Assembly: GCF_014645315.1 (NCBI RefSeq)
Contig: NZ_BMLQ01000002.1
Span: 248,001-312,000, forward strand
Reading direction: 5' to 3'
DNA length: 64,000 bases
From: Citricoccus zhacaiensis
Lineage (GTDB): Bacteria > Actinomycetota > Actinomycetes > Actinomycetales > Micrococcaceae
Below, one piece after another: positions 3,118 to 19,744 of the stretch (the first letter of the stretch is position 1; each line of letters starts with the position of its first letter). A program made the position numbers and the translations under genes. The notes under the pieces were generated by a model. It worked only from the letters and a program-made list of their open reading frames with translations, was not told the origin of the DNA and did not search any database.

Positions 3118-3124
3118 CCCAGGG

Positions 3125-3185
3125 ATCACGGCCGCGCCAGAGGTCGAGACACGCCGGGCAGATCGACAGTTACCGATCTCGTGAT
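3125..3185 (+). repeat. 61-bp dispersed palindromic element, copy A
   Basis: First of three equal-length copies in the window (others at 16418-16478 and 30747-30807). It begins ATCACGGCCGCG and ends CTCGTGAT, so the termini are inverted (ATCACG/CGTGAT) and the whole unit can fold into one long imperfect hairpin. By hand alignment 53 of 61 bases match copy C. It lies between two convergent gene ends (3117 on plus, 3207 on minus), where a bidirectional terminator would be expected. Confidence 0.8.
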
Positions 3186-3206
3186 GCCAGGGGTTGGGGC
3201 GGCTGG

Positions 3207-4391
3207 TCAGGAGCCGGCGAGCATGTCCAGGACGAGCGGCTTGACCTTCGAGCCGTAGAGCTCGATCGAGTCCATCATGAACTCGTGCGGCAGGGAGCCG
3301 TTGCCGTACTTCATGCCGAAGCGGCCGGCGTCCAGGGCCCGCACGCTGGCGGCCACCTTGCGGGCCACCGTCTCCGGCGAGCCCAGGTGCAGCGCGCCAT
3401 GGGCGACCTCCTGCCGGAACTGGGCGGGCGAGGGGGCGGGCCAGCCGCGTTCGGCGCCGATCTTGCGCATGGAGGCCTCCCAGTGCGGGTAGTACCGCTC
3501 GGCGGCCTCCTCGTCCGTGGCGGCCACGAAGCCGTGCGAGTGCAGCGCCACGCGGCGGGGCTCGAAGCCGCGGGAGGCGATCTCGCGGCGGTAGAGCTCG
3601 GCGAAGGGCCGGAACCGCTCGGGAGTCCCGCCGATGATCGCCAACTCGAGCCCCATGCCATAGGTGGCTGCCCGCACCACCGAGGTCGGGGTGCCCCCGA
3701 CGGCCACCCAGGCGGGCAGGCCGGACTCGTGGGCCGTCGTCGGGAACACGGACTGGCGCTGCAGCGCGGCCCGGGTGCTGCCCTGCCAGGTCACGGGCTG
3801 CTCGGTGCGCAGCCGGGAGAAGAGGTCCAGCTTCTCCTCGTAGAGCATCTCGTAGTCGGAGAGCTCGTAGCCGAACAGCGGGAAGGACTCGATGAAGGAG
3901 CCGCGGCCCAGGGAGACCTCGGCGCGGCCGTTCGAGACGGCATCCAGAGTCGCGAAGCGCTGGTAGACGCGGACCGGGTCATCCGAGGAGAGCACGGTGA
4001 CGGCGGAGATCAGCTTGATGTGCTCGGTCTGTCCGGCGATCGCGGACAGGACTATCTCCGGCGAGGACACGGAGTAGTCGGGGCGGTGATGTTCGCCGAT
4101 GCCGATGACGTCCACGCCGACCTGGTCTGCCAGCACGGCCTCGGCCACGACATTGCGGAGCACCTGGGGGTGGTCGAGACGCTGACCGTCGAGGTCCTGG
4201 GTGACATCGCCGAAGGTATGCAGCCCGAACTCGACCGTGCCGGCGGGCACGGAGTCGGCGCGCTCGGTGGACGGGTTGGGCCGCGGGGCGGCAAGGGCGG
4301 CAGGAGTGGGAGCAGGATTGGGCGCCGGCTGTGGCTGGGGGCTGGGATTCTCGGTCACATCAGGGTGAACACTGGACCGGACCCGTTCCAT
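3207..4391 (-). CDS. LLM-class flavin-dependent oxidoreductase (luciferase-like)
   Basis: Flavin-dependent monooxygenase or oxidoreductase of the bacterial luciferase-like TIM-barrel family; the substrate is unknown. The fold begins near residue 50 (VEFGLHTFGDVT) and shows the typical ADQVGVDVIGIGEHH and RAEVSLGRGSF segments. The first ~45 residues are Pro/Ala-rich and not part of the family, so the true start may be internal. ATG 4391 has AAGGA directly abutting it, which is too close; GTG 4370 and GTG 4358 are alternatives without a good ribosome site. Length 394 aa versus about 350 for the family supports a shorter product. It is separated from the upstream FAD oxidoreductase gene by a strong hairpin (4431-4486), so it is probably transcribed independently. 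Confidence 0.85.
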   Translation of the reverse strand: MERVRSSVHPDVTENPSPQPQPAPNPAPTPAALAAPRPNPSTERADSVPAGTVEFGLHTFGDVTQDLDGQRLDHPQVLRNVVAEAVLADQVGVDVIGIGEHHRPDYSVSSPEIVLSAIAGQTEHIKLISAVTVLSSDDPVRVYQRFATLDAVSNGRAEVSLGRGSFIESFPLFGYELSDYEMLYEEKLDLFSRLRTEQPVTWQGSTRAALQRQSVFPTTAHESGLPAWVAVGGTPTSVVRAATYGMGLELAIIGGTPERFRPFAELYRREIASRGFEPRRVALHSHGFVAATDEEAAERYYPHWEASMRKIGAERGWPAPSPAQFRQEVAHGALHLGSPETVARKVAASVRALDAGRFGMKYGNGSLPHEFMMDSIELYGSKVKPLVLDMLAGS

Positions 4392-4430
4392 TCCTTGAGA
4401 TTTGTACTTCTTTCCGGGAGAACCCGCATC

Positions 4431-4486
4431 GAGTCGGCAGTTGTGGTGGCGGTCCGGGGCGGGATCGCCACCACAACTGCCGACTC
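4431..4486 (-). terminator. Perfect 21-bp stem hairpin
   Basis: Bases 4431-4451 are perfectly complementary to 4466-4486, with a 14-nt loop. It follows the stop of the FAD oxidoreductase gene (4529) and precedes the luciferase-like gene on the same strand. There is no T-run, so this would be a structure-only terminator or an mRNA stabiliser. The stem sequence differs from the 61-bp repeat family. Confidence 0.65.
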
Positions 4487-4528
4487 AGTTGGTTGCGCAC
4501 GGGCTACAGAAGGGGGGCCGGACACTGG

Positions 4529-5659
4529 CTATGGCAGCGGGAAGGAGCCGTTGCCGAAGAGGATCCGCCGCGCCAGCGCCTGGCCCGGCGGCGTCCTCAA
4601 CACAGCGAAGGCGCTCGTGGCGAGAGCCGGCGTGCGTAGCCCGTCCAGGCCCTTGCGCAGGAGCAGCCGCTTGCGGAACCGTGCTCGCAGGGCGTGGCCG
4701 TCGTAGCACTCCAGGGCATCCACCCGGCCGGCTCGGAGGGCCTCGTCCAGGACCGCGGCGGCGTGGCCGGACAGCCGCAGGCACGGGTCCAGTCCTCCGG
4801 CGGTCAACGGGGAGACCGCCCCGGCGGCATCACCCACCAGCAGCCCATCCGGGGCGGCGATCCGGGGCAGCACGCCGCCCACGGGGATCGGCCCGGCGCG
4901 CTTCTCCACCGACGCCGGCCGCGGCACGCCCTCCAGCCCCGGGGCCCGCGCGCTGAAGTCGCGCAGGGCGCTGTACAGGCCGCGGGGAAAGCGCGTGGCA
5001 TGGCCGGCGGTGCCGACGTGTACATGCTCGCCGTCCCGCAGCACCCAGGCCAGGTAGCCGGGGGCCACCCTGGGGTCCACCACGCAGTGGAAGGTGGGCT
5101 CCACGCGCGGATCTGGATCGGGGAACACCTCCTCGGCACCCATCAGCAGCCGGGTGTTGCGGCTCAGCCCGAGCTCGCGGGCGACCCTGGACCGGGCGCC
5201 GTCCGCCCCGACCACGAAGCGGGCCCGGACCGGGAGCGGGCCGGCGGCATCCTCGAGGAGATACGTACCCTCCCGCAGGCCGGTGAAGCGCGTGGCCAGC
5301 CGCAGGTCGACGCCGGCCCGCACGGCATCGCGGGCGGCCGCCACATAGAGCGGCCCCATGTCCCCGACCCGGTACTCGTCGCGATCACTGGTCAGTGCCA
5401 CCGGACCCGTCAACCCGGGCGGGTAGAGCACCATGCGACGGATGACCGGCCCCAGGTGCTCCTCGGGCAACGCGAAGTCCTCGAGGGTCCGGCGCACGAA
5501 GATGCCGGTGGTCCGGACGGTGCCCGTCAACGTGGGGCGGCGCTCCGCCAGCAGCACCTGATGACCGGCGCGTGCCAGCTGGGTGGCGCAGTGCAGTCCG
5601 GCCAGGCCCGCCCCGACCACCAGGACATCTACGTCAGCGCTCCGTTCAGTCGCCGCCAT
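4529..5659 (-). CDS. FAD-dependent oxidoreductase, geranylgeranyl-reductase-like
   Basis: Group A flavoprotein of the geranylgeranyl reductase / aromatic hydroxylase type. The 376-aa product opens with the FAD Rossmann motif VVGAGLAGLHCATQLARAG, has the middle DG motif (FVVGADGARSRVA) and the C-terminal GD motif (LLVGDAAGAVSPLTAGG). Members of this family reduce isoprenoid chains (menaquinone or lipid prenyls) or hydroxylate polyketides; which applies here is not visible. ATG 5659 is chosen because GGGAGGA lies 6 nt upstream and it begins just before the Rossmann fold. It overlaps the end of the Xre regulator gene by 14 nt, so it is translationally coupled as the third gene of the DUF2975-Xre operon. 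That arrangement suggests control by the same regulator. Confidence 0.85.
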   Translation of the reverse strand: MAATERSADVDVLVVGAGLAGLHCATQLARAGHQVLLAERRPTLTGTVRTTGIFVRRTLEDFALPEEHLGPVIRRMVLYPPGLTGPVALTSDRDEYRVGDMGPLYVAAARDAVRAGVDLRLATRFTGLREGTYLLEDAAGPLPVRARFVVGADGARSRVARELGLSRNTRLLMGAEEVFPDPDPRVEPTFHCVVDPRVAPGYLAWVLRDGEHVHVGTAGHATRFPRGLYSALRDFSARAPGLEGVPRPASVEKRAGPIPVGGVLPRIAAPDGLLVGDAAGAVSPLTAGGLDPCLRLSGHAAAVLDEALRAGRVDALECYDGHALRARFRKRLLLRKGLDGLRTPALATSAFAVLRTPPGQALARRILFGNGSFPLP

Positions 5660-5903
5660 GGCCGTCCTCCCCGCGGTCGTCCTCCGGAGCATCCCGCCCA
5701 GCAGCCTCCCAGCGCAGGAGGTCACCGGGCTGGCAGTCCAGCACGCGGCACAAGGCCGCCAATGTGGTGAACCGAACGGCCTTGGCACGCCCGTTCTTCA
5801 GCACGGCCAGGTTGGCGGGGGTGATGCCGACGGCCTCCGCCAGTTCGCCGGCCGACATCTTGCGCCGGGCCATCATGACGTCCACGTCCACGACGATCGG
5901 CAT
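5646..5903 (-). CDS. Xre-family helix-turn-helix regulator (YozG-like)
   Basis: Small 85-aa DNA-binding protein consisting almost only of a Cro/C1-type helix-turn-helix (MSAGELAEAVGITPANLAVLKNGR region, residues ~16-39) and a short acidic tail. It is typical of regulators paired with DUF2975 membrane proteins. Its ATG (5903) overlaps the TGA of the DUF2975 gene by one base (TGATG), so the two are coupled. The likely target is its own operon through the palindrome at 6447-6463. The ligand or signal is unknown; a membrane partner with adjacent regulator suggests the membrane protein modulates the regulator, which is inference. Confidence 0.9.
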   Translation of the reverse strand: MPIVVDVDVMMARRKMSAGELAEAVGITPANLAVLKNGRAKAVRFTTLAALCRVLDCQPGDLLRWEAAGRDAPEDDRGEDGHGGD

Positions 5904-6412
5904 CAGATCACGTCCGAGAGTTCGTCCTCGAGCCGCCGGGCCTGGGCGTCCCGGTCCACGGCCTGGGCCAGCAACCGGCGGGCGACGTTGACCGTCAGCG
6001 CGGCCGCGAAGGCCAGCAACGCCACCCCGCCGACCAGCAGGACGAGCCCCGGAGCGGTGGTGCCGCCGCTCAGGATGACCCCGAAGGCCACCAAGAGCAC
6101 GCCGCCGCAGGCCATCGCACCGGTGATCACGTCCACGGAGCGGAAGGCCTCGCGGGAGAAGATCCGCCCCCGCAGCACGAGGGTCAGCAGCCGCCAGATG
6201 CACACGCCGATCACCTGCAGGCTCACCACCCCGAGGGCCAGGACCACGACCAGGGACACGGCGACCTCCAACGGGGCCGGCTCGAGGTCGATCCACAGCA
6301 GCGGCAGGATCACCGCCAGCACCACCAGCGAGCCGGTGGCGGCGAGCACCAGCATGGTCCGCAGGATGACCACGAGGGATCGCGGCACAGACGTGGGAAC
6401 GGGAGCGGGCAT
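5903..6412 (-). CDS. DUF2975 membrane protein
   Basis: 169-aa integral membrane protein with four hydrophobic helices in two pairs (LVVILRTMLVLAATGSLVVL, VAVSLVVVLALGVVSLQVIG, then two after FSREAFRSVDVITG). The central RGRIFSREAFRSVD stretch is typical of DUF2975. It is first gene of the DUF2975-Xre-FAD oxidoreductase operon. ATG 6412 is preceded by GGAGGA with good spacing; an upstream in-frame ATG at 6445 lacks this. The start codon lies about 35 bp from a perfect 17-bp palindrome. The function of the family is unknown. Confidence 0.88.
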   Translation of the reverse strand: MPAPVPTSVPRSLVVILRTMLVLAATGSLVVLAVILPLLWIDLEPAPLEVAVSLVVVLALGVVSLQVIGVCIWRLLTLVLRGRIFSREAFRSVDVITGAMACGGVLLVAFGVILSGGTTAPGLVLLVGGVALLAFAAALTVNVARRLLAQAVDRDAQARRLEDELSDVI

Positions 6413-6446
6413 GACAGTCCTCCATCGATTGTCTTTCGATGCCAAA

Positions 6447-6463
6447 CTATCGTTAAACGATAG
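6447..6463 (-). promoter_or_regulatory. 17-bp palindrome, probable operator of the DUF2975-Xre operon
   Basis: CTATCGTT-A-AACGATAG, with perfect 8-bp arms and a 1-nt centre. It lies between the sensor-kinase stop codon (6464-6466) and the DUF2975 start. A 1-nt loop cannot act as a terminator hairpin, whereas the symmetry suits a dimeric regulator; the adjacent Xre protein is the obvious candidate. Confidence 0.65.
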
Positions 6464-8131
6464 CTACGGCAAGGTCGGTGACAGCTCCACGGTGAACACC
6501 GTCCGCCCCGGACCGGACTCCACCTGCACGTCGCCACCGTGGGCCCGCGCCACCGACCGCACGATCGACAGCCCCAACCCCGTGGAACCCTCGGCCCCGA
6601 CGCCGGTTCCGGTACGGGCCGCGTCTCCGCGCACGAAGCGGTTGAAGAGCGTCGGCAGCAGCCCCGCGTCGATCCCCGGCCCGTCGTCCTGGACCTCCAA
6701 CCGCGCGGATCCGGCACCAGGACCTCCGGCCCCGTTCACCACGTCGAGCCGCACGGCCACGGTGGTTCCGGCGGGCGTGTGCTTGCGCGCATTGGAGAGC
6801 AGGTTGGCCACCAGCTGGGCCAGCTGCCGCCGGTCACCGGCCACGGTCACCTCGCCCTCCGGCACATCCACGATCCAGGTGTGGTCCCGGCCGGCGGCGG
6901 TGGCATCCATGACGGCGTCCACCACGATCTCGCCCAGGTCCACGGCCTGTCGGTCCCCGGCGTCGCCGGTGCCGGTGCCCCCTTCGGCTTCCGCCGCATC
7001 CAGCCGCGCCAGCAGCAGCAGGTCCTCCACGAGCGAGCCCATCCGGTCCGCCTGCACAAGCACCCGGTCCACGGAGTCCCGCCCGGACGGGCTGAGCGGC
7101 TCGGTCATCCGTACCATCTCGGTGTAGCCGCGCACGGCGGCCAGGGGGGTACGCAGCTCGTGGGAGGCATCCGCCACGAACGTCCGCAGCTTCCGCTCCG
7201 AGCGGTTGCGCTGCTCGAAGGCTCCGTCTACCGAGTCGACCAGTCGGTTCAGCGCGTGCCCCACCTCACCGACCTCGTCACCCGGCTGCGCCAGGCCGCC
7301 CCGCACCCGGTAGCGCTCCAGCGAGACCTCGCCCGAGCCCATGGGTACCTCCGCCACGCGGGCCGCCGCGCGGGAGACCTCCGCGAGCGGGCGCAGGGAG
7401 CGCCGGATCCACCACCAACCGGCGACGCCGGCCACCACCAGCGCTGTCAACGAACCGATGACCTGGACCCAGGCCAAGGCGGCCTTGGTGCCATCCACCT
7501 CCGCCGTCGGCAGGCCCGCCACCGCCACGGCCGGGGAGACCTGTCCGGCACCGGACACCGCATCCAACGCCGCGGCCCGCACGAGGTAACCGCCCGAGTC
7601 CAGCTCCACCCTCTGCACGGTCGATCCGTCCGAGCCGTCCGTCTCCTCCGCGCCCTCGACCGCGTCCACCACCGAGGCCAGCGCCTGCACGTCGGCCGCA
7701 GACAGCTCCACGGCCTGCCCGTCCACGTCCAGCCGGGAGGCCTCCACCACGGTGTCCCCCACCTGCACCAGGGCCAGCATCCCGGCCGGCTGGCCGGGGG
7801 CCTCCAGGGGGCTGCGGTCGAGGCCGCCACCCGCGGAAGGAGCGTCCGGTGACGACACGCCCTCGGGGGCGCCGCCGTCGGGAAATCCGCCGTCCGGGCC
7901 CCCGGGGCCGCGCAGGAAGGTCAGGGAGCGCTCCCAGGCCTGTTCCACCTGGTGCTCCAACTGCGCATCCACCGCCCGGCCGCTGAGCACGAGCGAGGTC
8001 GCTGTGAGGGCGGCCAGCACCACGGCCAGCAGGACCACCACGCCCAGGGCGGTGCGCAGGGCCAGGGAGGGTCGTCGTCGGGTCCGGGCTGGGGCCTGGG
8101 TTGCGGCTGGGGCTGGGGCTTGGGCCGTCAT
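6464..8131 (-). CDS. Two-component sensor histidine kinase (HAMP-HisKA-HATPase)
   Basis: 555-aa membrane kinase. TM1 is near residues 26-50 (LGVVVLLAVVLAALTATSLV), then an extracytoplasmic sensor region of ~180 aa rich in Gly/Asp, TM2 (VIGSLTALVVAGVAGWWW), and a HAMP linker. A HisKA box follows with phospho-His324 (DASHELRTPLAAV) and an HATPase domain with N box (LLSNARKHTP), DDGPGI and GLGLSIVRS. It resembles the TcrY/CseC-like kinases of actinobacteria that pair with OmpR regulators. Its ATG overlaps the response-regulator stop by one base (TGATG), so the pair is co-translated. Its proximity to the DUF4956-VTC-DUF4353 operon hints at a shared role in the cell envelope, which is inference. 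Confidence 0.93.
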   Translation of the reverse strand: MTAQAPAPAATQAPARTRRRPSLALRTALGVVVLLAVVLAALTATSLVLSGRAVDAQLEHQVEQAWERSLTFLRGPGGPDGGFPDGGAPEGVSSPDAPSAGGGLDRSPLEAPGQPAGMLALVQVGDTVVEASRLDVDGQAVELSAADVQALASVVDAVEGAEETDGSDGSTVQRVELDSGGYLVRAAALDAVSGAGQVSPAVAVAGLPTAEVDGTKAALAWVQVIGSLTALVVAGVAGWWWIRRSLRPLAEVSRAAARVAEVPMGSGEVSLERYRVRGGLAQPGDEVGEVGHALNRLVDSVDGAFEQRNRSERKLRTFVADASHELRTPLAAVRGYTEMVRMTEPLSPSGRDSVDRVLVQADRMGSLVEDLLLLARLDAAEAEGGTGTGDAGDRQAVDLGEIVVDAVMDATAAGRDHTWIVDVPEGEVTVAGDRRQLAQLVANLLSNARKHTPAGTTVAVRLDVVNGAGGPGAGSARLEVQDDGPGIDAGLLPTLFNRFVRGDAARTGTGVGAEGSTGLGLSIVRSVARAHGGDVQVESGPGRTVFTVELSPTLP

Positions 8132-8904
8132 CAGGCCGGCCGGATGACGTAGCCGGCACCGCGGACGGTGTGGATCATGGGGGCGCGGCCGGCGTCGATC
8201 CGCTTGCGCAGGTAGGAGATGTACAGCTCCACGATGTTGGCCTGACCGCCAAAGTCGTAGTCCCAGACGTTCTCGAGGATCTGGGCCTTGGACAGCACCG
8301 CACGCGGGTTCTCCATGAGGTACTGCAGCAGGTTGAACTGGGTGGTGGTCAGCTCGATCGCCTCGCCGCCGCGGGAGACCTCGCGGGTGCGGACGTTCAG
8401 GCTCAGGTCCCCCACCACGAGCTCGTCCGCGTCCTGGGCCATCACGCCCGTGCGCTGGACCAGCCGGTGCAGGCGGATCAGCACCTCCTCGAGCGAGAAC
8501 GGCTTGGTGACATAGTCGTCGCCGCCGGCGGCCAGGCCGCGGATGCGGTCGTCCACGGAGTCCTTGGCCGTGAGCATCAGGGCGGGCACCTCCGGGCGGA
8601 AGACGCGGATCTTGGCGAGGACCTCGAGTCCGTCCAGCTCCGGCAGCATCCAGTCCAGCACCAACACGTCCGGGGCGAACTCCCGGGCGGTCTCGACGGC
8701 GGCCCGCCCCGCATGAGCCACCCGCACCTCCCAGCCGCACAGGGACAACCCCATGGAGACCAGATCGGCCAGCATCGGCTCGTCATCCACCACGAGGGCG
8801 CGCACCGGGGAGCCGTCCGGGTGGGAGAGCTGCGGTAGCACGTCGCGCAGGGCGGACAGGGACGTGGCCGAGGAGGTGGCGGGGGTCGGTTTCATAGGGG
8901 ACAT
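8131..8904 (-). CDS. OmpR/PhoB-family response regulator
   Basis: 257-aa DNA-binding partner of the kinase encoded immediately downstream. The receiver domain has the acidic pair (VVDDEP), phospho-acceptor Asp in VLVLDWMLPELDG (about residue 84) and Lys in YVTKPFS. The C-terminal winged helix ends in the usual TVRGAGYVIRP. About 35 extra residues precede the receiver. ATG 8904 is used, but ribosome-site evidence is weak, and ATG 8925 or ATG 8895 are possible. The 87-bp gap from the DUF4353 gene (ending 8992) leaves open whether it is read from the upstream operon. Confidence 0.93.
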   Translation of the reverse strand: MSPMKPTPATSSATSLSALRDVLPQLSHPDGSPVRALVVDDEPMLADLVSMGLSLCGWEVRVAHAGRAAVETAREFAPDVLVLDWMLPELDGLEVLAKIRVFRPEVPALMLTAKDSVDDRIRGLAAGGDDYVTKPFSLEEVLIRLHRLVQRTGVMAQDADELVVGDLSLNVRTREVSRGGEAIELTTTQFNLLQYLMENPRAVLSKAQILENVWDYDFGGQANIVELYISYLRKRIDAGRAPMIHTVRGAGYVIRPA

Positions 8905-8991
8905 GGTTCCAGTACAGGGCACCATCCTGTCGCAGCAACGTGCTGAAGCTGTGCTGGACCTGTGAAGGTTGTGCCACGCGCGATCACGCGA

Positions 8992-10800
8992 TCACCAGGC
9001 CGGTGCGCCGCCCGGGCCGCCGGCGGGACCGCCGCCCATGCCGCCCGCCATGCCACCGCCCATCCCGGCCGAGTACTCCCCCGCCGTCACGGTCGCCAGC
9101 TCCGTGGCGCCGTCGGTGGTTACCGAGCCGTCCAGGGTCTCCCCGGCGGCCAGCCCGGCCTCGGCCCCGGAATCCGCGGTGCTGTACACCGTGTACTCGC
9201 CGCCGTCCTCGATCCCGGCGGCCGAGAGGACCAGGTTCTCGGCGGACTTCACCGTGGTGAAGGCCGCCACCACGGCGCCCTCGGCATCCGCCACCACCAG
9301 CGTGGTCCCGGCCTCGACCGCCTCGGGCAGGGTGACCTGCAACCCGCCCTGGGTGGAGGTCTCGCCCAGGCCCTGCGCCATGCCGGCGCTGCCGGCGGCC
9401 GCCAGGGTGCCCCCGGTCACCGTGAGGTCACCGGCCACGTCGATCGAGCCGTTGCCGTTGCCTTCCGGACCGTTGACCACCACGGTGCCACCGGAGATCT
9501 CCGCGCTCCCGTTCGAGTCCAGGCCGTCGCCCTCGGCGGTGATCGTCAGGGCGCCGCCGGTGACGGTGACGCTCTGCCCGCCGGCCGCCTCCATGCCCCC
9601 GCCCGGGACGCCGCCCGCAGCCACATCCCCCGCGGAGTCCTCGGTGGTCGCGTCGGAGTCCTCGGCGGAGGCGTCAGCCGTGGAGTCCGCCGTGGCCAGC
9701 TCCCCGGAGGCGTTGAGGCCGTCGTCCGAGGAGATCACGTCGATCGCGCCGCCGGAGACCACGATCGCGTAGGCCTCCAGGCCTTCGGTCGACTCGGTCA
9801 CGGTGACCTCGCCGTCCCGGACGGTCAGGGTGGACTCGGCCTTGACGCCGTCGTCACCGGCGGAGACCTGGAGGCTGCCGCCGTAGACGGTCAGCCAGCC
9901 GCGGTCGGACTCCTCGGCGTTGGAGGACTTCACCCCGTCCTGCGCCGCCGTGACGTCCACGGTGCCGGAGATCAGGGCCACGTAGTCCTTCCCCACGATC
10001 CCGTCATCGGCCGCCTGGACGGTGACGCTCGCCCCGTCGACCACCAGGCCGTCGTTGCCGTGGATCGCGTCGAGATGGTTGCCCGCCACGACGAGGGACC
10101 CGGATCCGGCGATCGTCAGGTCCGCGCGTGAGTACAGGGCCGCGTCCGCGGCGTCCTCCGAGGTGTCCACGTAGGCCTCTGCATCGGCCAGGGAGTTCTC
10201 GCTGCCCTCGGCCAGCAGGAGGGTCACCTCGTCGGCGGAGTCGACCCGCAGCGCCGAGCCCGTGGAGGAGGTGATGGCCGCACCGTCGAGGATGACTCGC
10301 ACGGCGTCCTCCGTGCCGGAGGCCACCACCACGGTGCCCTGGAAGTCGCCGGAGAGGCGGTAGGTGCCGAAGCCGGAGATCGTCAGGACCGCTTCCCCGT
10401 CGCCCGCGGTGACGGACACGGTGTCCGCATCGGCGCCGGTCGCACTCGCCCCGGTGCCCTCCAGGGCCACCTCGGTGACCTCGTCCTCGGCATAGCTCGT
10501 GTCGTCCGCGTCGTAGTGCGTCGCCTCGGCGATCTCGTCGGTGGCCCCTTGGCTCGTCCACCCCGCGTCGGTCCAGCCGGAGGTGGTGGTGGATGTCCCC
10601 GCCGCGGTCCCGGAGCCGGCCGCATCCCTGGAGGTGCCGGCGTCGGACGCCTCGGAGTCGGCCGCGGTGCCGGTAGCCGCGCAGCCGGTGAGCATCAGGG
10701 CCGCGCTCAGGGCAACTCCGGTGGCCCTCAGCGCCGCGGGATGCCGGCGGGTACGGTGCTGGTCAGAAGGATGCTGGGGGAACGGATTACGGGGGGTCAT
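8992..10800 (-). CDS. DUF4353 carbohydrate-binding-like lipoprotein
   Basis: 602-aa exported lipoprotein. The signal peptide ends in lipobox LMLTGCAATG (Cys about residue 40), followed by a low-complexity Ser/Thr/Ala linker. A long repetitive domain of short beta turns follows, such as SDEVTLLLAEGSENSL, GIVGKDYVALISGTVDV and KSSNAEESDRG, typical of the DUF4353 parallel-beta family annotated as carbohydrate-binding. A Gly/Met/Pro-rich tail (MGGGMAGGMGG) closes the protein. Its ATG overlaps the VTC gene's TGA (ATGA), making it the third gene of the DUF4956-VTC-DUF4353 operon. It probably acts on the outer face of the membrane. No catalytic residues can be identified. Confidence 0.85.
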   Translation of the reverse strand: MTPRNPFPQHPSDQHRTRRHPAALRATGVALSAALMLTGCAATGTAADSEASDAGTSRDAAGSGTAAGTSTTTSGWTDAGWTSQGATDEIAEATHYDADDTSYAEDEVTEVALEGTGASATGADADTVSVTAGDGEAVLTISGFGTYRLSGDFQGTVVVASGTEDAVRVILDGAAITSSTGSALRVDSADEVTLLLAEGSENSLADAEAYVDTSEDAADAALYSRADLTIAGSGSLVVAGNHLDAIHGNDGLVVDGASVTVQAADDGIVGKDYVALISGTVDVTAAQDGVKSSNAEESDRGWLTVYGGSLQVSAGDDGVKAESTLTVRDGEVTVTESTEGLEAYAIVVSGGAIDVISSDDGLNASGELATADSTADASAEDSDATTEDSAGDVAAGGVPGGGMEAAGGQSVTVTGGALTITAEGDGLDSNGSAEISGGTVVVNGPEGNGNGSIDVAGDLTVTGGTLAAAGSAGMAQGLGETSTQGGLQVTLPEAVEAGTTLVVADAEGAVVAAFTTVKSAENLVLSAAGIEDGGEYTVYSTADSGAEAGLAAGETLDGSVTTDGATELATVTAGEYSAGMGGGMAGGMGGGPAGGPGGAPAW

Positions 10801-11671
10801 GGTCGTGCTCCTTGGTGCTCGAGGTCAGCGGGATGTCCGGCTGGGGTGAGGGGGTCGATCGGCGCGGCGAGCACCACCGGGAGGTCCCGGTGCAGCGTGC
10901 GGTGCCAGCGGTGGTGCGGCAGGTCCGGGTGCAGCAGGGCCTGCCCGGCGCAGTACTTGGAGACGGCCACGGGCCGGATCCCCCGGCGCCAGAGCCAGCG
11001 GTCCGCAGCGGTCGGGTGGCCGGCGGACTTGGTCTCCACGACGAGCCGTCGGGACAGCCGGAGCGGCCCCCTCACGTCCGCCGGGTGGTCCGCCGGCTGA
11101 TCCGCAGGGGCCGGCGTCCACAGCAGGTCGCGGTCCAGGGTCAGACGGGTCCCGAGGCCGGGCAGCAGCAGGGTGGTGCGCCGGTAGTAGGTGTGCATGA
11201 CCGGGCGCAGCGGACCGTCGACCGTCCGCCCGAGTCGCTCGGCCACGAAGCCGAGCCCCTCGCCGGCCAGCGTCCCGTCCTCGAGGCTCCAGGGATGCGG
11301 TGCTTGACGGTCTGCCCGGAGGCGGACTTGGTCTTGACCTCGAGGAAGCGGTCGCCGGTGTCCGGGTACCGGCGGGTGCGCACCTTGAAGCGGTGCCGGT
11401 GCCGGCGCGCGGCCATCCGGTACGCCTCCAGCGCGGGGGTGTCGTAGTAGGTCGAGTCGTAGGGGCTCGCGGCGGTGCCGGCCACCTCGAGGGCCATGGC
11501 CTGCCCGACGCCGGCCCGGCCCGTTCCGGCCCACAGCACCAGGTCTGTGGCCACCGGGACGGGGACGATGTATTTGCGGTCGTGCCGCAAGTGCAGCGCC
11601 GCCTGCCGATTCATGGACTCCAGGTCGAGGGTGGGCAGGGTGGCCACGGCGGCGGAGAACGGGTCGCTCAT
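10797..11671 (-). pseudogene. VTC-domain polyphosphate polymerase, one-base frameshift
   Basis: Encodes a CYTH/VTC-type polymerase related to the catalytic subunit of the yeast polyphosphate polymerase. The N-terminal half is read from ATG 11671 and has DRKYIVP, STYYDTPALEAY, HRHRFKVRTRRY and FLEVKTKSASGQTVKHRI, the strands that line the triphosphate tunnel. After residue ~126 that frame degenerates. The proper continuation (SLEDGTLAGEGLGFVAERLG, MHTYYRRTTLLL, RLTLDRDL, LVVETKS, VSKYC) is in the next frame and ends at 10797. Adding one base in the GGG run at 11292-11294 restores a single 291-codon frame. Both junctions to neighbours are intact ATGA overlaps. All core motifs are preserved, so a sequencing error is as likely as a real mutation. 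Confidence 0.82.
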
Positions 11672-12333
11672 CGCGTGGCCGCCGTGACCGGGCTGGGGGT
11701 GATCCCTGCCGGGGCAGGGGCGGGAGGGACCGTGGGCACCGCGGGGCCGGCGTCGGGCCTTCGGTGGGTGGGCCGTTGCCCGGCGCGCGGGACCCGGTAG
11801 GTGACGTCCACGATCGTCAGGTCCCGGATCTGGTCCGTCTCCACCACGGTCATCCGCTGGGGTACGGCTCCCAGCAGGTCCCGAAGGTGGTCCGTGAGCT
11901 CCTGTTCCCCGGTGACGGCGCGGTCCACGACGATCCGCTGGCGCCGGGCACCGCCCATGAAGCTGGGGTGGTCAACGACCGCCAGAACCAGCACGGGAAG
12001 GGCCATCAGTGAGGCGGCCAGCCAGGCCGGCTGCACGCCCAGCCCGGCGATCAGGCCGAGGGCCAGGGACGAGAAGAAGTACGCCACGTCATGCTGCTCC
12101 AGCTCGGTGGAGCGCAGCCGGATGATGGACAGCACCCCGAACAGGCCGAGGCCGACCCCGAGTGAGGCGGTGGTGGAGACCCCGGCCAGGGCGGCGGCCA
12201 CCGCGAGGACACCCACGTTGGCGCCCAGGAAGGACACCACGAGGTCCTTGCGTCCGTGGCGGCTGCGGTAGAGGCCGAGGACCAGCACGCCGATGGCCAG
12301 CAGGTCGGCTGCGACATAGAGGAGGGACGGCAT
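11668..12333 (-). CDS. DUF4956 membrane protein
   Basis: 221-aa protein with four predicted membrane helices in the first ~125 residues (LLYVAADLLAIGVLVLGLY, LVVSFLGANVGVLAVAAALA, LGVGLGLFGVLSIIRLRS, then two in SSLALGLIAGLGVQPAWLAA). A cytoplasmic domain follows with FMGGARRQRIVVDRA. The FGVLSIIRLRS..L.QHDVAYFFSSLALG segment is the DUF4956 signature. Start ATG 12333 has AAGGGAG upstream. The stop overlaps the VTC start (ATGA). DUF4956 proteins commonly neighbour VTC-domain enzymes, so this is the probable membrane anchor or channel for the polymerase, by inference. Confidence 0.88.
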   Translation of the reverse strand: MPSLLYVAADLLAIGVLVLGLYRSRHGRKDLVVSFLGANVGVLAVAAALAGVSTTASLGVGLGLFGVLSIIRLRSTELEQHDVAYFFSSLALGLIAGLGVQPAWLAASLMALPVLVLAVVDHPSFMGGARRQRIVVDRAVTGEQELTDHLRDLLGAVPQRMTVVETDQIRDLTIVDVTYRVPRAGQRPTHRRPDAGPAVPTVPPAPAPAGITPSPVTAATR

Positions 12334-12418
12334 CGCGCTCCCTTTCCGTTCAGGGGATGTTGAGGTGATGTTCACCCTGGATGCCGACTCTGTGCCGCAG
12401 CTGTGCCGGCCGCTGGTC

Positions 12419-12456
12419 CGCCCTGTGCGTTCGCCCTGTGCGTTCGCCCGTGCGTT
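12419..12456. repeat. Three tandem 13/13/12-bp direct repeats in a divergent promoter
   Basis: Unit CGCCCTGTGCGTT occurs twice exactly (12419-12431, 12432-12444) and a third time lacking one T (12445-12456). It lies in the 224-bp gap between the DUF4956 operon and the divergent HtrA-like gene. Direct repeats of this kind can bind OmpR-type regulators or be slippage products. Nothing else is apparent in this gap. Confidence 0.6.
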
Positions 12457-12557
12457 CGGCCTGCACAGTGCCGTCACAGGAAGGGCACACGTGACGCAGA
12501 GGCAGCGGTGGTGGTGTGTTGACGCATCGAGAACCGCCCGATCCCCAGGAGCACGCC

Positions 12558-14075
12558 ATGACCGGTACCGACCCGAACACCCGCGAACCGTCCGCCCGGC
12601 CCACAGGCCCTGCCGGCACAGCCCACCCGGACACGGCCCCGCTGACCGTGCCCTCGGCCGATGCCGCCGCGGACACCACCCACCGGGGCGCCCGGGAGAA
12701 ACCCCGCCGCATCCGCTGGTCCGTGGCGGGGTTGGCTGTCGCCGGACTGATGGTGGCCGGCGGCATCGGGGGCGTGGTGGCCGACTCCGTCAGCACCGGC
12801 ACTCCCCCGTCCGCCGCCTCCTCGCCGGCCAACAGCATCGGTTCCTCGGAGGAAGAGTCCGCAGCGGACGGGTTCTCGGCACAGACCGTCGCGGATCCCG
12901 CCACGCTGGCCGAGACCCTGGACCACGTCCACGAAGGCATCACGGTGCCCGATTCGGGCAGCTCCTCAGGCGATTCGGGCGGTGGCCGGGGCAGCGGTCT
13001 GGACAGCGGCATCGGCGGGGAGCGCTCCGAGAGCCCGGACGGGTACTCCTTCGGCGGCCCCGATGCCTCCTTCGGTGGCGCCCAGGGTGCCGCGGGCACC
13101 CAGGTTGACGCCGGCGTCGAGGTCCAGGACGCCCCGGGCGTGCTCCTGGTCGAGACCGAGACCTCCTTCGGTGAGGGTGCGGGAACCGGGATGGTGCTGA
13201 GCGCAGACGGACTCGCCCTGACGAACTACCACGTGGTGGACGGCTCCTCCGAGGTGGAGGTGACCGTGGCGGACACGGGTGAGACCTACACGGCCAGCGT
13301 GGTGGGCCGGGACGCCACCCATGACGTGGCGGTGCTGCAGCTGCAGGATGCCTCGGGGCTGGACACCATCAGCGTCGACTCCTCCGGGGTGGATTCCGGG
13401 GAGGGCGTGGCCGCCGTGGGCAACGGCTCCGGCCAGGGCTACCTGACCGCCGTCTCCGGCACGGTGACCGGGGTCGACCAGTCGATCTCCGCGGAGAGCC
13501 TCGGGGACACCGAGGACCTCACGGGGCTGATCGAGACGGACGCGGACGTGGTCCCCGGATACTCCGGCGGGCCGTTGGTGGACGAGGACGGCCAGGTCGT
13601 CGGCATGAGCACGGCGGCCTCCACCGGTCAGACCTCCGAGCAGGTCAACGGCTTCGCCATCGGGATCACCGAGGCCCTGGGCATCGCGGACCAGATCGTG
13701 GCCGGCACGGAGTCGGACAGCGTGCAGGTCGGCGCCTCCGGGGCGCTAGGGATCACCGTGACAGACGCCGCTGCCGCGGCACAGCAGGAGTACGCGGATC
13801 CGCGCTCGCGGGGATCACGGGACGGCGGTACCGACTCAGCAGCCTCCGGCGCGCTCGTGGTGGAGGTCGCCCCGGGATCCGCGGCCGAGTCGGCGGGTCT
13901 GGTGGCCGGTGACACCGTGACGGCACTGGACGGCACCGAGGTGGCCGATTCCTCCGAGCTCTCCGATCAGGTCAGCTCGCTGGACCCGGGCGACTCCGTG
14001 AGCCTGGTCTGGACAGACGCCGACGGCGCCGAGCACACCGCCACCGTGGACCTGGGCGAGAGCACCGTCAACTGA
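12558..14075 (+). CDS. HtrA-like membrane-anchored trypsin-type protease with PDZ domain
   Basis: 505-aa envelope protease (S1C family). It has a disordered cytoplasmic N-terminus, one membrane helix near residues 54-76 (WSVAGLAVAGLMVAGGIGGVV) and a long Ser/Gly-rich linker. The trypsin domain has a complete triad: His225 (LTNYHVVDG), Asp256 (ATHDVAVLQ) and Ser336 (VPGYSGGPLVD; usual families have GNSGGP). A C-terminal PDZ domain begins near residue 395 (GALVVEVAPGSAAESAGLVAGD). ATG 12558 has AGGAG 6 nt upstream; a start at 12516 would add 14 residues. Such proteins degrade or chaperone misfolded exported proteins. A stable hairpin follows the stop. Confidence 0.9.
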   Translation: MTGTDPNTREPSARPTGPAGTAHPDTAPLTVPSADAAADTTHRGAREKPRRIRWSVAGLAVAGLMVAGGIGGVVADSVSTGTPPSAASSPANSIGSSEEESAADGFSAQTVADPATLAETLDHVHEGITVPDSGSSSGDSGGGRGSGLDSGIGGERSESPDGYSFGGPDASFGGAQGAAGTQVDAGVEVQDAPGVLLVETETSFGEGAGTGMVLSADGLALTNYHVVDGSSEVEVTVADTGETYTASVVGRDATHDVAVLQLQDASGLDTISVDSSGVDSGEGVAAVGNGSGQGYLTAVSGTVTGVDQSISAESLGDTEDLTGLIETDADVVPGYSGGPLVDEDGQVVGMSTAASTGQTSEQVNGFAIGITEALGIADQIVAGTESDSVQVGASGALGITVTDAAAAAQQEYADPRSRGSRDGGTDSAASGALVVEVAPGSAAESAGLVAGDTVTALDGTEVADSSELSDQVSSLDPGDSVSLVWTDADGAEHTATVDLGESTVN

Positions 14076-14090
14076 GCCCAACACTCCCAC

Positions 14091-14151
14091 GTTGAGTCTG
14101 GAGGGATTCACCGGAAACCCGACCCCGGGCGTGAATCTCTCCAGACACAAC
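14091..14151 (+). terminator. Hairpin between convergent genes
   Basis: Arms 14091-14111 and 14131-14151 pair over 21 positions with two mismatches and a 19-nt loop. The structure separates the ends of the HtrA-like gene (14075) and the ABC permease gene (14161), so it can serve both strands. There is no T-tract. Confidence 0.65.
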
Positions 14152-14160
14152 GCCAACAGA

Positions 14161-15591
14161 TCAGCGCTCTGCGAGTACTCCGCGCAGGGTGGGCCGGGAG
14201 GCCGTGACGCCCAGCCGGACGAGCAGCACGCCGAGCACCAGGGCCGCAGCCACGAGCGCGATGGACGCGGGGCTGAAGAGCACTGCGGCACCGATCACGG
14301 GCAGGGTCGTCACCACGGCGGCCACGAGGGTGAAGACCAGCACGATCCACAGCGGCCCCATCACGGAGCGGCGGCGGATGGCCTCCATGGTCGGCTCGGT
14401 CATCCCGAGCCGGCCCAGCCCGCGGTACATCTGGGCGCGGTCCAGCACCTGGGCCGCCTGGGTGATACCCACGGAGCACGCCGTCAGCACGAAGGCGATG
14501 AGCATGGTCAGCAGCACCCCGGTCTGCAGGTCGCCGATGAGCACCAGGTCCTCCGGCCGCGCCCCCTCGGCCGAGACCGCGTTCGCCAGGCCCATGCCGG
14601 CCCCGCCGACCACGCCGATGTAGGTGGTCACCGCGAGGCCGCCGATCTGCCGCCAGGCCTGCTGCGGGGACTCGAGCACGTTGCGGGCCGCCACGAGCTT
14701 CTCGGCCGTCTCCGCGCGGCGCCAGGTGCGGCGGGTCACCAGCCCCACCAGCCAGGGGCCGATGAAGTGCAGGGCCAGCATCGGCAGGCCGAAGCCGACG
14801 AGCAGCATGATCAGCACGACCATCATGTCCCCGGCCCCGAAGGCGTTGAGCAGCACCTGGGCCAGCACCAGCCCCACCACGGCCAGCACCACGCGGACCC
14901 AGTGGACGGTGGCGGCCTGCTGCCGGGTCCGCACGCCCAGCGGGGTGATCTCGATGCGCCGCAGCCCGGCCATCGAGCTGGCGGCGGCCATCAGCAGCAA
15001 GGCCCCGACCACGGCGAACAGCCACCCGGTCCCCAGCCACATGCCCTCCAGGCCGATCGGCCGCCCCGCGAACGGGATCAGCCCGACCAGGGGCATGAAG
15101 ACGAGGTAGCCGACCACGCCGAGCAGCAGCCCAGCGGCGGCCAGCACCACGGACTCGACCACGGCCAGGGTCCGCACGGTGAGGGTCCCGGCGCCCAGCA
15201 GGCGCAGGGAGGACAGCCGTTCGTCCCGGCGCCGGGCCAGCAGCCTCGCGGCGGACCCCGCCAGGCCGACCAGGGGGAACACGAGGAGCATCAGCGCGAA
15301 GACGGAGAGGATCAGGTAGAAGCCGGCCAAGTCCCCCTCGATCGTCCAGAACGAGGCGGCGCCTCCGGCCACAAGCAGCGCCAGTGTGCCGACGATCGCG
15401 AACGCGGTCACGGGCAGTCCCCAGACCTGGCGGTCGGAGAACAGCTTGCCCAGGAACAGCCTCAGCACCGCGGCGGTGCCGCCTCTTCCGGTGCCCGACG
15501 GCGGCCCGTCCGGGACCGCGCCCAGGTGACCGTCCGGCGTCGGGCCGGGATGGCCGGACTGGGTCCCGGGTTGCATGGTCTCGTGGTTCAT
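14161..15591 (-). CDS. ABC transporter permease, FtsX family
   Basis: 476-aa multi-span membrane protein with FtsX-type domains, the permease partner of the ATPase encoded just upstream. Around ten hydrophobic segments are visible. ARRRDERLSSLRLLGAGTLTVRTL and GLGRLGMTEPTMEAIRRRSVMGPL are the two cytoplasmic coupling regions seen in this family. ATG 15591 is preceded by GGAGGT and overlaps the ATPase TGA (ATGA). Such pairs export peptides or lipids or act as antimicrobial-peptide resistance modules; the substrate is unknown. No sensor system adjoins it directly. Confidence 0.87.
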   Translation of the reverse strand: MNHETMQPGTQSGHPGPTPDGHLGAVPDGPPSGTGRGGTAAVLRLFLGKLFSDRQVWGLPVTAFAIVGTLALLVAGGAASFWTIEGDLAGFYLILSVFALMLLVFPLVGLAGSAARLLARRRDERLSSLRLLGAGTLTVRTLAVVESVVLAAAGLLLGVVGYLVFMPLVGLIPFAGRPIGLEGMWLGTGWLFAVVGALLLMAAASSMAGLRRIEITPLGVRTRQQAATVHWVRVVLAVVGLVLAQVLLNAFGAGDMMVVLIMLLVGFGLPMLALHFIGPWLVGLVTRRTWRRAETAEKLVAARNVLESPQQAWRQIGGLAVTTYIGVVGGAGMGLANAVSAEGARPEDLVLIGDLQTGVLLTMLIAFVLTACSVGITQAAQVLDRAQMYRGLGRLGMTEPTMEAIRRRSVMGPLWIVLVFTLVAAVVTTLPVIGAAVLFSPASIALVAAALVLGVLLVRLGVTASRPTLRGVLAER

Positions 15592-16319
15592 CGCACACCT
15601 CCGGTGGTGGCGGCCGCCGAGTCGGCGACGATCCGGCCGTCGGCCACCCGCACCAGGCGGGAGCAGCGGTCGGCGGTGGCCTGGTCGTGCGTGACCATCA
15701 CCAGGGTGCGGCCGCGGCCGACGGTGGAGTCGAGCAGGGCCCCGAGCACCGAGGCGGAGGTGGCGGAGTCCAGGGCGCCGGTGGGCTCGTCGGCGAAGAC
15801 CACGTGCGGGTCCGCCACCTGGGCGCGGGCGATGGCCACCCGCTGGGCCTGTCCGCCGGAGAGCTCGCCGAGGCGGCGGGTCTGCATCCCTTCCAATCCG
15901 AGGGCGGCGAGCCACTGGGCGGCGTGCGATTCTGCGGCCGGCCGCGGCACGCCGGAGAGCATCAGCGGCAGGGCCACGTTCTCCACGGCTGTCAGCTCCG
16001 GCAGCAGCAGTCCGTCCTGGAACACGAAGCCGAGTCGTTCGCGACGCAGTTTCGCGCGGGCCTCCTCATTCAGGGAGCTGACTTCCGTGCCACCGTTCGT
16101 GGACCCGGTGCCGGCGCCGGTGAAGTGGACCGAGCCGGCGTCGGGCGTCAGGATCCCGGAGAGGATGTGCATCAGGGTGGTCTTGCCGGAGCCGGAGGGG
16201 CCCATGATGGCCACGGACTCTCCGGCCTCGACGGTCAGGTCCACCCCGTCCAGGGCATGGGTGGTGCCGTAGGACTTCCTCAGGCCACGGGCGGTGAGTA
16301 GGGGTGCGGGTCGGTTCAT
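15588..16319 (-). CDS. ABC transporter ATP-binding protein (LolD/MacB type)
   Basis: 243-aa nucleotide-binding subunit. It has Walker A GPSGSGKTT, Q loop (VFQDGLLLPELT), signature LSGGQAQRVAIARAQ, Walker B VVFADEPTGALD and switch His in VMVTHDQ. The 'EPTGALD' sequence is typical of the LolD/MacB/BceA branch that drives FtsX-type permeases, in agreement with the overlapping downstream permease gene. Two adjacent ATGs (16322, 16319) follow GGAGG; the second has the better spacing and is used. A 61-bp repeat lies about 100 bp upstream, at the end of the MFS gene. Confidence 0.92.
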   Translation of the reverse strand: MNRPAPLLTARGLRKSYGTTHALDGVDLTVEAGESVAIMGPSGSGKTTLMHILSGILTPDAGSVHFTGAGTGSTNGGTEVSSLNEEARAKLRRERLGFVFQDGLLLPELTAVENVALPLMLSGVPRPAAESHAAQWLAALGLEGMQTRRLGELSGGQAQRVAIARAQVADPHVVFADEPTGALDSATSASVLGALLDSTVGRGRTLVMVTHDQATADRCSRLVRVADGRIVADSAAATTGGVR

Positions 16320-16417
16320 CATGCCTCCACTCTCCCGGCGGGGCCCCCGCCCCGTCATCGGCCCGGGCTCTGATCCTGCGCGGCGCGGGGTCCACCTGCA
16401 GGATGACCCCGGCACCC

Positions 16418-16478
16418 ATCACGGCCGCAGTCGACGTCGAGACTCGCCGAGGCGGTCAGCAGTTACCGCTCTCATGAT
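16418..16478 (+). repeat. 61-bp dispersed palindromic element, copy B
   Basis: Begins ATCACGGCCGCAG and ends CTCTCATGAT; 61 bp, exactly the length of copies A and C, with 48 of 61 bases matching copy C. The last 7 bases (16472-16478) lie inside the MFS gene and provide its TGA stop codon (16472-16474), so the element abuts or has replaced the original 3' end of that gene. Confidence 0.8.
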
Positions 16479-17737
16479 CGGGGGGAGGCGGTGGCATTGC
16501 GGGAGAACAGCATGGCCACGCAACCGGCGGCCAGGATCCCGAGCAGGGTCACCGCGGCCGGCACCATGGACCACAGGTCCCCGACGATCCCGAGCAGCAG
16601 CGTGAATGCCGCCAGGCAGAGGTAGGCGATCGTGAAGTAGCGGCTCATGGAGGCGGCCGCCTTCAGGGGGTGGCGGCGCTGCGACTCGCCGATCTCCTGC
16701 GTGGCGCTGAGGAACGTGAACCCATGCCCGACGCCGGCCCCCATCACCGCGATCAGCGCCCACCACATCTGCCCCGTCAGCAGCATGGCGGCAAAGCCGC
16801 AGATCCCGACGAGCAGAGCCGACAGGCCCAGCCGGCGGCCCCGCTGGACGGCCACGTTGCGAGCGGATACCTGGACGATGCCGGCCACCGCCAGCATCGC
16901 GGCCACGATCCCGCCCAGCACCGCCAGGCTCTCCACGCCGAGGGCCGAGCCGATGAGGCCGGGTCCCACTGACTGATAGAGGCCCACCATGGCCCAGCTG
17001 GCGCCGGCGGTGAGGCTGATCATCAGGTGGGGGCGGGGCACGAGAGCCGGAACCGGCTCCAGCGCCGGAGGCGGCACCGCGGACGCGTCCGGGATCCCGG
17101 TACGGGCCTCCGTCTCCCCCAGGATCAGGGGGCCGGTGGACGGACCGGTGGGGGCCGGCGTCGCCGGTAGGGCCGGGGACCGCCCGTGCACAAGCAAGAG
17201 GACCACCGCGGCCGCCACGGTGGCGGCCGCGGCCAGCATGGGCAGGGCGGTGCCGCCGGAGAGGTCCGCCAGCACGCCTGCCATCACGGGGCCGAGGCAG
17301 GCCCCGACCAGCGCGGTCAGGGTGACCAGCAGTGCGGTGAAGGAGCGGGCCCGCGGCGGGTCCGCGCCGTAGAGGGCGGCGCTGGACGCGGTCATCACCA
17401 CGCCGAGCGCCAGACCCTGGACGAACCTGGCCCCCAGCAGTGTGCCGACCCCGCCCGCCAGCGCCAGTGCCGAGGCGGCCACCACGGAGGCGGCCGCCGC
17501 CAGGACCATCAGCGTCCGGGGACCGCGCCGCCGCAGCCACCGTCCGGTGAGCAGCAGTCCGGGGATCAGCCCACCCACGTACATTGCGTAGACGAGGGTC
17601 TGGACGGTGGCGGAGAAGCCGAGATCAGCACGCCATCCGGCGTAGAGCACCGTGGGGGCGTTGACGGCGCCGAAGACGAGTACGGCGGTGGCGAAGGCGG
17701 TGATCCGCGGAACCGGCCGGGCCGTCACCGCGGTCAC
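16472..17737 (-). CDS. MFS transporter (drug-export-like)
   Basis: 421-aa major facilitator protein with 12 predicted helices in two halves separated by a Pro/Ala-rich loop near residues 185-235. The loop 2-3 region (GLLLTGRWLRRRGPRTLMVLAAA) has the MFS-like basic pattern. The start is GTG 17737, which overlaps the stop of the EEP gene (GTGA), so both are read together. A MarR/OhrR regulator is divergent from this unit and may repress it. The final residues and stop codon fall within repeat copy B. The substrate is unknown. Confidence 0.87.
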   Translation of the reverse strand: MTAVTARPVPRITAFATAVLVFGAVNAPTVLYAGWRADLGFSATVQTLVYAMYVGGLIPGLLLTGRWLRRRGPRTLMVLAAAASVVAASALALAGGVGTLLGARFVQGLALGVVMTASSAALYGADPPRARSFTALLVTLTALVGACLGPVMAGVLADLSGGTALPMLAAAATVAAAVVLLLVHGRSPALPATPAPTGPSTGPLILGETEARTGIPDASAVPPPALEPVPALVPRPHLMISLTAGASWAMVGLYQSVGPGLIGSALGVESLAVLGGIVAAMLAVAGIVQVSARNVAVQRGRRLGLSALLVGICGFAAMLLTGQMWWALIAVMGAGVGHGFTFLSATQEIGESQRRHPLKAAASMSRYFTIAYLCLAAFTLLLGIVGDLWSMVPAAVTLLGILAAGCVAMLFSRNATASPRS

Positions 17738-19734: not shown

Positions 19735-19744
19735 GAAATCTGGA

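Follow-up and report, generated by a model that had tools for sequence, protein, structure and literature searches.

Polyphosphate in bacteria is usually credited to the polyphosphate kinases PPK1 and PPK2 (PMC10657179). Bacterial relatives of Vtc4, the tunnel enzyme of the yeast VTC complex, have been described beside other genes: in the accessible parts of the respective sources, cotH, a polyphosphate polymerase gene and a DUF4956 gene directly adjoin the pel genes of streptococci, clostridia and bifidobacteria (PMC7112168), and NELoc-2 of Clostridium perfringens comprises two polyphosphate polymerase-domain proteins and CotH (PMC11677781). The accessible part of a 2025 paper on Streptococcus intermedius describes a DUF4956 mutant with less aggregation and more Pel and a CotH mutant with less aggregation and less Pel, and reports the CotH-VTC-DUF4956 arrangement as not found outside pel (PMC12345266). 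Further mentions of DUF4956 found in the open-licence literature stand, in the accessible passages, in lists of regulated genes. Here we analyse a three-gene module encoding a DUF4956 membrane protein, a VTC-type enzyme and a beta-helix lipoprotein of the Cthe_2159 family in a stretch of 64,000 nucleotides of Citricoccus zhacaiensis (positions 248,001 to 312,000 of contig NZ_BMLQ01000002.1, assembly GCF_014645315.1; the whole stretch is referred to as the window). The new element is a VTC-DUF4956 module with Cthe_2159 that stands outside pel in the neighbourhood scanned; the version with CotH is already in print as an accessory of Pel loci. An earlier reading of the window from its sequence (the original prediction) had regarded bacterial VTC relatives as lacking a settled role, which is only partly so, as homologues have been partly characterised as pel accessories and mutants have been made; no bacterial member with measured polyphosphate, and no bacterial VTC enzyme with a tested product, was found in the accessible portion of the open-licence literature.

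The VTC and DUF4956 genes were found to be paired in both genome surveys that were performed (genomes and loci are cited below by our own G and L numbers). In the family survey (120 genomes), VTC was present in 36 genomes and DUF4956 in the same 36, and DUF4956 adjoined VTC on the same strand in 38/38 VTC places, with at most 405 base pairs (bp) between the domain matches. In the phylum survey (246 genomes, having at least two genomes in common with the family survey), VTC was present in 25 genomes and DUF4956 in the same 25 (hypergeometric P 9e-35, kinship ignored), which upholds the conserved co-occurrence on which the original prediction had staked its case; DUF4956 adjoined 27/28 of the VTC places, as counted from match coordinates. 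One of these genomes (G342) has its DUF4956 match below the curated cut-off and its VTC gene on a 5.9 kb contig, and another (G322) carries three VTC genes and two DUF4956 genes, one of the VTC genes (L077) having a CotH match nearby. Additionally, 80 named loci were collected with the DUF4956 profile. They had the highest scores among at least 576, include many Arthrobacter relatives and are dependent on one another; VTC was identified in 76 of them, Cthe_2159 in 49 and CotH in 17, with gene families defined by local profiles and Pfam names taken from one representative each. Of the four loci without VTC, two (L136 and L174) stop shortly past DUF4956, the other two being L126 and L152. A control search of Corynebacterium glutamicum, a species in laboratory use, matched VTC, DUF4956 and CotH alike. 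The grouping of these genes is far beyond chance, and DUF4956 is a near-obligate membrane partner of VTC.

The neighbourhood analysis that had been proposed for the module furthermore revealed a third, secreted-type protein, either Cthe_2159 or CotH, in 24/25 of the phylum genomes with the pair, the exception being G342. Of the 12 phylum genomes with a Cthe_2159 match, 11 have VTC, as do 17 of the 18 with a CotH match. At family level, one or the other occurs somewhere in 20/36 module genomes, Cthe_2159 adjoins the VTC place in 12/38 cases, CotH lies within 3.5 kb in 5/38 and both are present in one, while CotH genomes contain VTC in 8/9 cases. A Cthe_2159 gene at a contig edge was observed in a genome without the module (G087), and three further family Cthe_2159 genes lie away from it (G020, G023 and G051).

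The polymerase signature of the module is well supported by alignment of the VTC relatives. Eleven tunnel positions (R29, K33, R98, R100, K113, K123, R165, R176, E213, K215 and K239) were invariant in 41/41 intact, hand-chosen relatives (alignment A2, drawn from 64 gathered open reading frames, ORFs), and recounting on all 64 ORFs identified departures only in a broken fragment (G115, locus L034) and in the stop-cut L087. These positions align with Vtc4 residues R196, K200, R264, R266, K281, K294, R361, R373, E426, K428 and K458, as counted by hand from a profile alignment, and the change R264A/R266A/E426N was used to inactivate yeast VTC according to the accessible part of PMC9911596. A profile of the 41 intact relatives ranked yeast Vtc4 first (E 2.8e-22), with Vtc2 and Vtc3 behind. 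Similarly, a structural model of the VTC protein of G034, a genome of the same genus (predicted local distance difference test score, pLDDT, 88.6), had as its best match Vtc4 in complex with AppNHp-Mn (3g3r_B; Z 17.4, root-mean-square deviation 3.6, 223 aligned), followed by Vtc3 and Vtc2 (Z 16.6 and 16.4); the best non-VTC enzyme reached Z 14.1, with cyclase-like and tripolyphosphatase structures at 14.1 and below. PPK1 (PF02503) was matched in 0/7 genomes of the window's genus and in 28/41 genomes searched overall, and among the polyphosphate-polymerase candidates looked for, which did not include PPK2, the module is the sole one found in the genus's two carriers. PPK1 was also without a match in four genomes of genus g21, G001 and G066.

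An AlphaFold2 model of the DUF4956 protein (mean pLDDT 79.8) displayed five long helices, predicted from their composition to span the membrane, and a C-terminal E-H-E-E domain; the S. intermedius homologue is described, in the accessible part of PMC12345266, as having four membrane segments and an ACT domain and is called MgtC-like. Residues Y22, R72 and R74 were invariant in all 42 members of the alignment (A1, 41 of 61 DUF4956 ORFs plus that of the window), and on recounting the invariance extended to 61/61 relatives. Arginines of DUF4956 might steer a polyanion on the inner side of the membrane. Comparison of the DUF4956 profile with that of MgtC returned a probability of 96.2% (E 2.1e-9, 133 columns), based on 12 of 30 fetched loci, some of those in the right orientation, and seven unrelated profiles used as controls returned at most 0.6%. 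The MgtC Pfam model (PF02308) had 0 matches in the window genome (G000). Structural comparison by VIA-align yielded mixed, middling matches (best Z 6.6), with MgtC not among the matches listed; neither these matches nor the lack of a PDB match at E 0.001 is evidence of a new fold. On the profile comparison, DUF4956 is thus read as a remote relative of MgtC.

The profile of the Cthe_2159 family matches PDB entries 4peu and 4phb over the beta-helix (E 1.2e-68); we take these entries to be Cthe_2159 of Clostridium thermocellum, and their depositors label the molecule as uncharacterized. PF14262 is named as a carbohydrate-binding family, and ligand recognition by Cthe_2159 requires Ca2+ according to the accessible part of PMC8746771. 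A surface Cthe_2159 lipoprotein would fit a binder of polyphosphate or of an acidic glycan. CotH had no match in the window genome; the single CotH protein examined at full length (L036) carries a lipobox-like export signal, and that of S. intermedius is described as secreted (PMC12345266, accessible part). Relatives of a phosphodiester glycosidase (PF09992, NAGPA) and of GT2-GtrA proteins were both observed in 36/80 named loci, 35 of them with Cthe_2159 (35/49 of the Cthe_2159 named loci; L115, L116 and L130 are examples), company that hints at a sugar-phosphate surface polymer.

The relation of the module to pel was explored by scanning its neighbours. At the window module no pel-type family was present in the 15 proteins scanned, module included, the rest of the genome not being searched. 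Likewise, no glycosyltransferase, polysaccharide deacetylase or pel-named family (by the family names that we took to denote pel) was detected among 45 neighbours scanned at the CotH loci L036, L066, L089 and L093, a check that passed over ORFs of fewer than 150 residues and one 187-residue ORF adjoining DUF4956 in L066. These neighbours are associated with transport, metabolism and regulation, and include one GGDEF-EAL protein (L093). In L036 and L066, CotH lies after VTC; in L089 and L093 it diverges from DUF4956-VTC. As far as scanned, the results suggest that the trio can occur independently of Pel.

The limits of the module are indicated by G102, a genome of the same genus that is colinear with window positions 1-8978 and 12462-20809, with approximately 36 bases between the two blocks; exactly the three module genes are missing there, while the protease and the two-component system flanking them are present. 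Because G102 has lost, or never had, exactly these three genes, DUF4956-VTC-Cthe_2159 is considered to be the unit and the two-component system a neighbour. The module, which was carried by 2/7 same-genus genomes searched, is a conserved one that is gained or lost as a unit. The two-component system was considered as a member of the cassette and rejected, since four genomes of the genus that lack the cassette still have the regulator (81-90% identity); one further cassette-free genome of the genus (G060) lacks the regulator. Nevertheless, the control by envelope signals foreseen in the original prediction is partly borne out by recurrent OmpR linkage, and control of the module by neighbouring OmpR two-component systems appears plausible. 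An orthologue of the regulator (at least 59% identity) was identified in 30/36 family module genomes, and within the family it lies within 10 kb in 7/12 Cthe_2159-type places as against 0/26 others (Fisher P 6e-5, for related and hence dependent genomes, the seven cases falling in five genera with differing arrangements and two of them more than 7 kb away). More regulator-linked cases occur in the named loci L110, L132, L134, L137 and L149, and elsewhere the module has neighbours from OmpR lineages other than this one (33-47% identity). Nine Arthrobacter-like loci in which neither Cthe_2159 nor CotH adjoins (L047, L050, L053, L055, L057, L059, L060, L061 and L067) have another such regulator-kinase pair of OmpR type, convergent and located just past VTC.

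The original prediction had taken the second gene of the window module for a VTC-type polymerase gene. That it is intact is not confirmed: a one-base frameshift at 11292-11294 leaves no single open frame in the sequence as assembled, and the gene is split over two frames (ORFs 11671-11141 and 11534-10797) with one PF09359 match in each (42.6 and 35.5 bits, cut-off 23; E 9.9e-22 in an intact relative). The catalytic positions are spread over both frames, the part before the break retaining the counterparts of Vtc4 R264 and R266 and ending before those of R361, R373, E426 and K458. In G034, a single-contig genome, the gene is intact and encodes 291 amino acids, the window copy having one base fewer. 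A genuine mutation and an error of assembly would look alike here, and either may account for the frameshift. A real frameshift would amount to decay at strain level, with a dead polymerase and persisting companion genes, a state compatible with the other readings of what kind of module this is. It would agree with the frameshift being the only clear one among 27 window-matching ORFs called in the same-genus stretches L033 and L101, with the more damaged VTC gene of a second family genome, and with the absence of the cassette from 5/7 same-genus genomes. However, the protein encoded by the two halves of the VTC gene still shares 90% and 85% identity with that of the intact relative, DNA identity over the operon stretch is 91.6%, and short C runs are often sites of assembly error in what is here a draft genome of 23 contigs, so that we regard decay as possible but somewhat doubtful. 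A generally poor assembly was considered as an explanation and rejected, as two other double matches in the window were checked and neither was upheld; for one of them G102 agrees with the window while G034 differs. The other is at the left edge of the window (positions 1-134), where a gene displays a one-base difference from its G102 counterpart at a C run near 130, which is either a frameshift or an alternative start. The second broken VTC gene, in a genome of another genus (G115, L034), exhibits several indels relative to its same-genus relative L068.

We propose that the module represents a bacterial counterpart of the VTC machine, in which polyphosphate would be made from ATP, coupled to the membrane and retained or used at the cell surface, and assign this reading about an even chance (a probability of roughly 0.5). 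The cytosolic VTC protein would build polyphosphate from ATP within its tunnel, as judged from its conserved chemistry, a step that may be lost in the window genome because its VTC gene reads as frameshifted. The enzyme would work on the cytosolic face of the MgtC-like DUF4956 protein, with its invariant arginines and cytosolic alpha/beta domain, which would anchor or gate the enzyme and might also conduct the growing chain across the membrane. The secreted Cthe_2159 lipoprotein, being a relative of a Ca2+-dependent polysaccharide binder, would then bind the exported polyanion or an admixed glycan, with CotH possibly in its place at other loci, and the neighbouring OmpR system, judging by linkage, might adjust expression. 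The synthesis-and-export machine of the original prediction is accordingly retained in part, in view of the conserved pair, the secreted partner and the polymerase signature; the window's own polymerase gene, being frameshifted, does not bear it out.

Several observations weigh against a VTC-like machine. In addition to the frameshifted window copy, the VTC enzymes carry D or E at position 31 in 40/41 aligned relatives and in 62/63 of those with a letter there, while Vtc4 has T198. This acid recalls tripolyphosphatases, in one of which four basic Vtc4 residues are glutamates (PMC4641920, accessible part); in our own mapping, two of these four sites would fall on R29 and K215, which are basic throughout, and a third on the acidic position 31. 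Synthesis rather than hydrolysis is thus considered likely, although not certain. No SPX domain was found, VTC standing alone in the intact relative of 291 amino acids, and no Vtc1-like (DUF202) membrane subunit was detected in the proteins scanned around the module. Other arginines by the inner face of DUF4956 are less constant than R72 and R74 (R25 in 51/61 and R28 in 45/61 relatives), a narrower DUF4956 alignment reduced the MgtC probability to 37.8%, and DUF4956 had no PDB structure match at E 0.001. Furthermore, one VTC gene (L077 of G322) lacks an adjoining DUF4956, and in 16/36 family module genomes both Cthe_2159 and CotH are missing altogether. No measurement of polyphosphate, its export or its surface display for a bacterial member was found in the accessible portion of the open-licence literature, and, in the accessible part of PMC12345266, an S. 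intermedius VTC mutant still aggregates and makes Pel, from which it follows that the polymerase is dispensable for both in that organism.

That same set of mutants lends itself to a different account, in which an exopolysaccharide or wall glycan is the main product, its synthesis, attachment or modification being adjusted by DUF4956 and the third protein, and VTC would supply a signal or donor that is minor or stays inside the cell rather than a displayed polymer, since it was the DUF4956 and CotH mutants in which Pel and aggregation were altered while the VTC mutant still aggregated and produced Pel. The recurrent phosphodiester glycosidase and GT2-GtrA relatives would agree with such a role, as would the naming of Cthe_2159 as a carbohydrate-binding family. 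It is, however, difficult to reconcile with the lack of any glycan-synthesis family in the 15 proteins scanned around (and including) the window module, with the DUF4956-VTC pairs that stand without either third partner in those 16/36 family genomes, and with the retention throughout of the VTC residues for ATP and metal, which argues for a product that matters; a role as accessory to a surface glycan is hence held to be somewhat unlikely.

The VTC-like machine may be carried further, to a polymerase-translocase in which the MgtC-like protein, rather than a Vtc1-type ring, would form the membrane path for polyphosphate and the chain would be held through Ca2+ by Cthe_2159 or used by CotH under two-component control. 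In this complete form the proposal is judged rather unlikely; if true, the module would be a stand-alone system for an anionic surface polymer, and the accessory genes of Pel loci would be one version of it that was borrowed. Exported polyphosphate might also supply phosphoryl groups for reactions at the surface, away from the cytosol and its ATP, for instance those of CotH kinases. CotH genomes do lie nearly all within the VTC genomes (17/18 in the phylum, 8/9 in the family), and export of CotH is suggested by the L036 signal and by the description of the S. intermedius protein. Conversely, the window genome is without a CotH match, its third protein is a binding beta-helix, and we know of no kinase activity for Cthe_2159. 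No donor role of this kind was found in the accessible portion of the open-licence literature, and a phosphate-donor system is regarded as quite improbable.

The layout of the locus is summarised in Table 1. The operon of three genes is as originally described with respect to its families, borders and ATGA overlaps, which lie at 11671-11668 (DUF4956/VTC) and 10800-10797 (VTC/Cthe_2159); the lipobox of the lipoprotein was read by eye from the ORF, and NCBIfam provided no name for any of the three module proteins. The OmpR-type regulator and the HAMP/HisKA sensor kinase follow in the same direction, as was claimed. The gap of 87 bp given for the regulator applies if the ATG at 8904 is its start, while the longest ORF, starting at 8925, reduces it to 66 bp. 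Between the divergent protease and DUF4956 genes (window 12420-12460), a 13-bp direct repeat occurs in three copies, with two copies in G034.

Table 1. Coordinates (window positions) of the module, its frameshift and the adjoining genes.
Feature	Position	Strand	Basis
DUF4956 membrane protein, 221 amino acids	11668-12333	-	PF16316, E 2.8e-52, 169/169 profile positions
Frameshifted gene of a VTC-type tunnel enzyme (polyphosphate polymerase family)	10797-11671	-	PF09359 matches in two frames; intact same-genus gene aligned
Frameshift site: short C run, one base shorter than in the intact same-genus gene	11292-11294	-	Alignment to G034
Cthe_2159 (PF14262, formerly DUF4353) beta-helix lipoprotein, 602 amino acids, lipobox LTGC	8992-10800	-	PF14262, E 2e-66
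Cassette extent: stretch absent from the colinear same-genus genome G102	8979-12461		blastn of the window against L101
OmpR-type response regulator; module-linked, outside the cassette	8131-8925	-	Profile match; kept in four cassette-free same-genus genomes
Sensor histidine kinase (HAMP, HisKA, HATPase)	6464-8131	-	Profile match; start inferred from overlap with the regulator stop
DegP/HtrA-like trypsin-PDZ protease, diverging upstream of the cassette	12516-14075		Profile match; best NCBIfam match below cut-off

Because the pairing with VTC is complete at the genome level (120 and 246 genomes), DUF4956 is an immediate candidate for the membrane partner that the bacterial enzyme has lacked, and this pairing provides MgtC-like proteins with a concrete biochemical setting. 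The apparent independence of the trio from Pel additionally raises different questions for the accessory genes of S. intermedius. When compared with the accessory genes of the Gram-positive pelDEADAFG loci (SIR_1594/1593/1592 of S. intermedius), the window module has VTC, DUF4956 and a secreted protein in common with them, but it has Cthe_2159 where those have CotH and no pel-type family among the 15 proteins scanned. Cthe_2159 of C. thermocellum and the window lipoprotein have the beta-helix profile match in common, while the latter is longer and resides in an operon with VTC and DUF4956. MgtC/SapB proteins (PF02308) and DUF4956 both have an alpha/beta domain in the cytosol after their membrane helices, while DUF4956 is unmatched by the MgtC Pfam model in the window genome and partners VTC. 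PPK1 would have the same product, polyphosphate, but is an unrelated enzyme. Finally, the eukaryotic VTC complex (yeast Vtc1/Vtc3/Vtc4; PDB 8i6v, 7ytj and 3g3q) and the bacterial module have in common the Vtc4 tunnel fold, the catalytic residues and the partnering of the polymerase with a membrane protein, whereas the bacterial module is without SPX, bears an acid at the position of Vtc4 T198, appears to replace the Vtc1-type helices by the MgtC-like DUF4956 protein, and has a secreted lipoprotein added.

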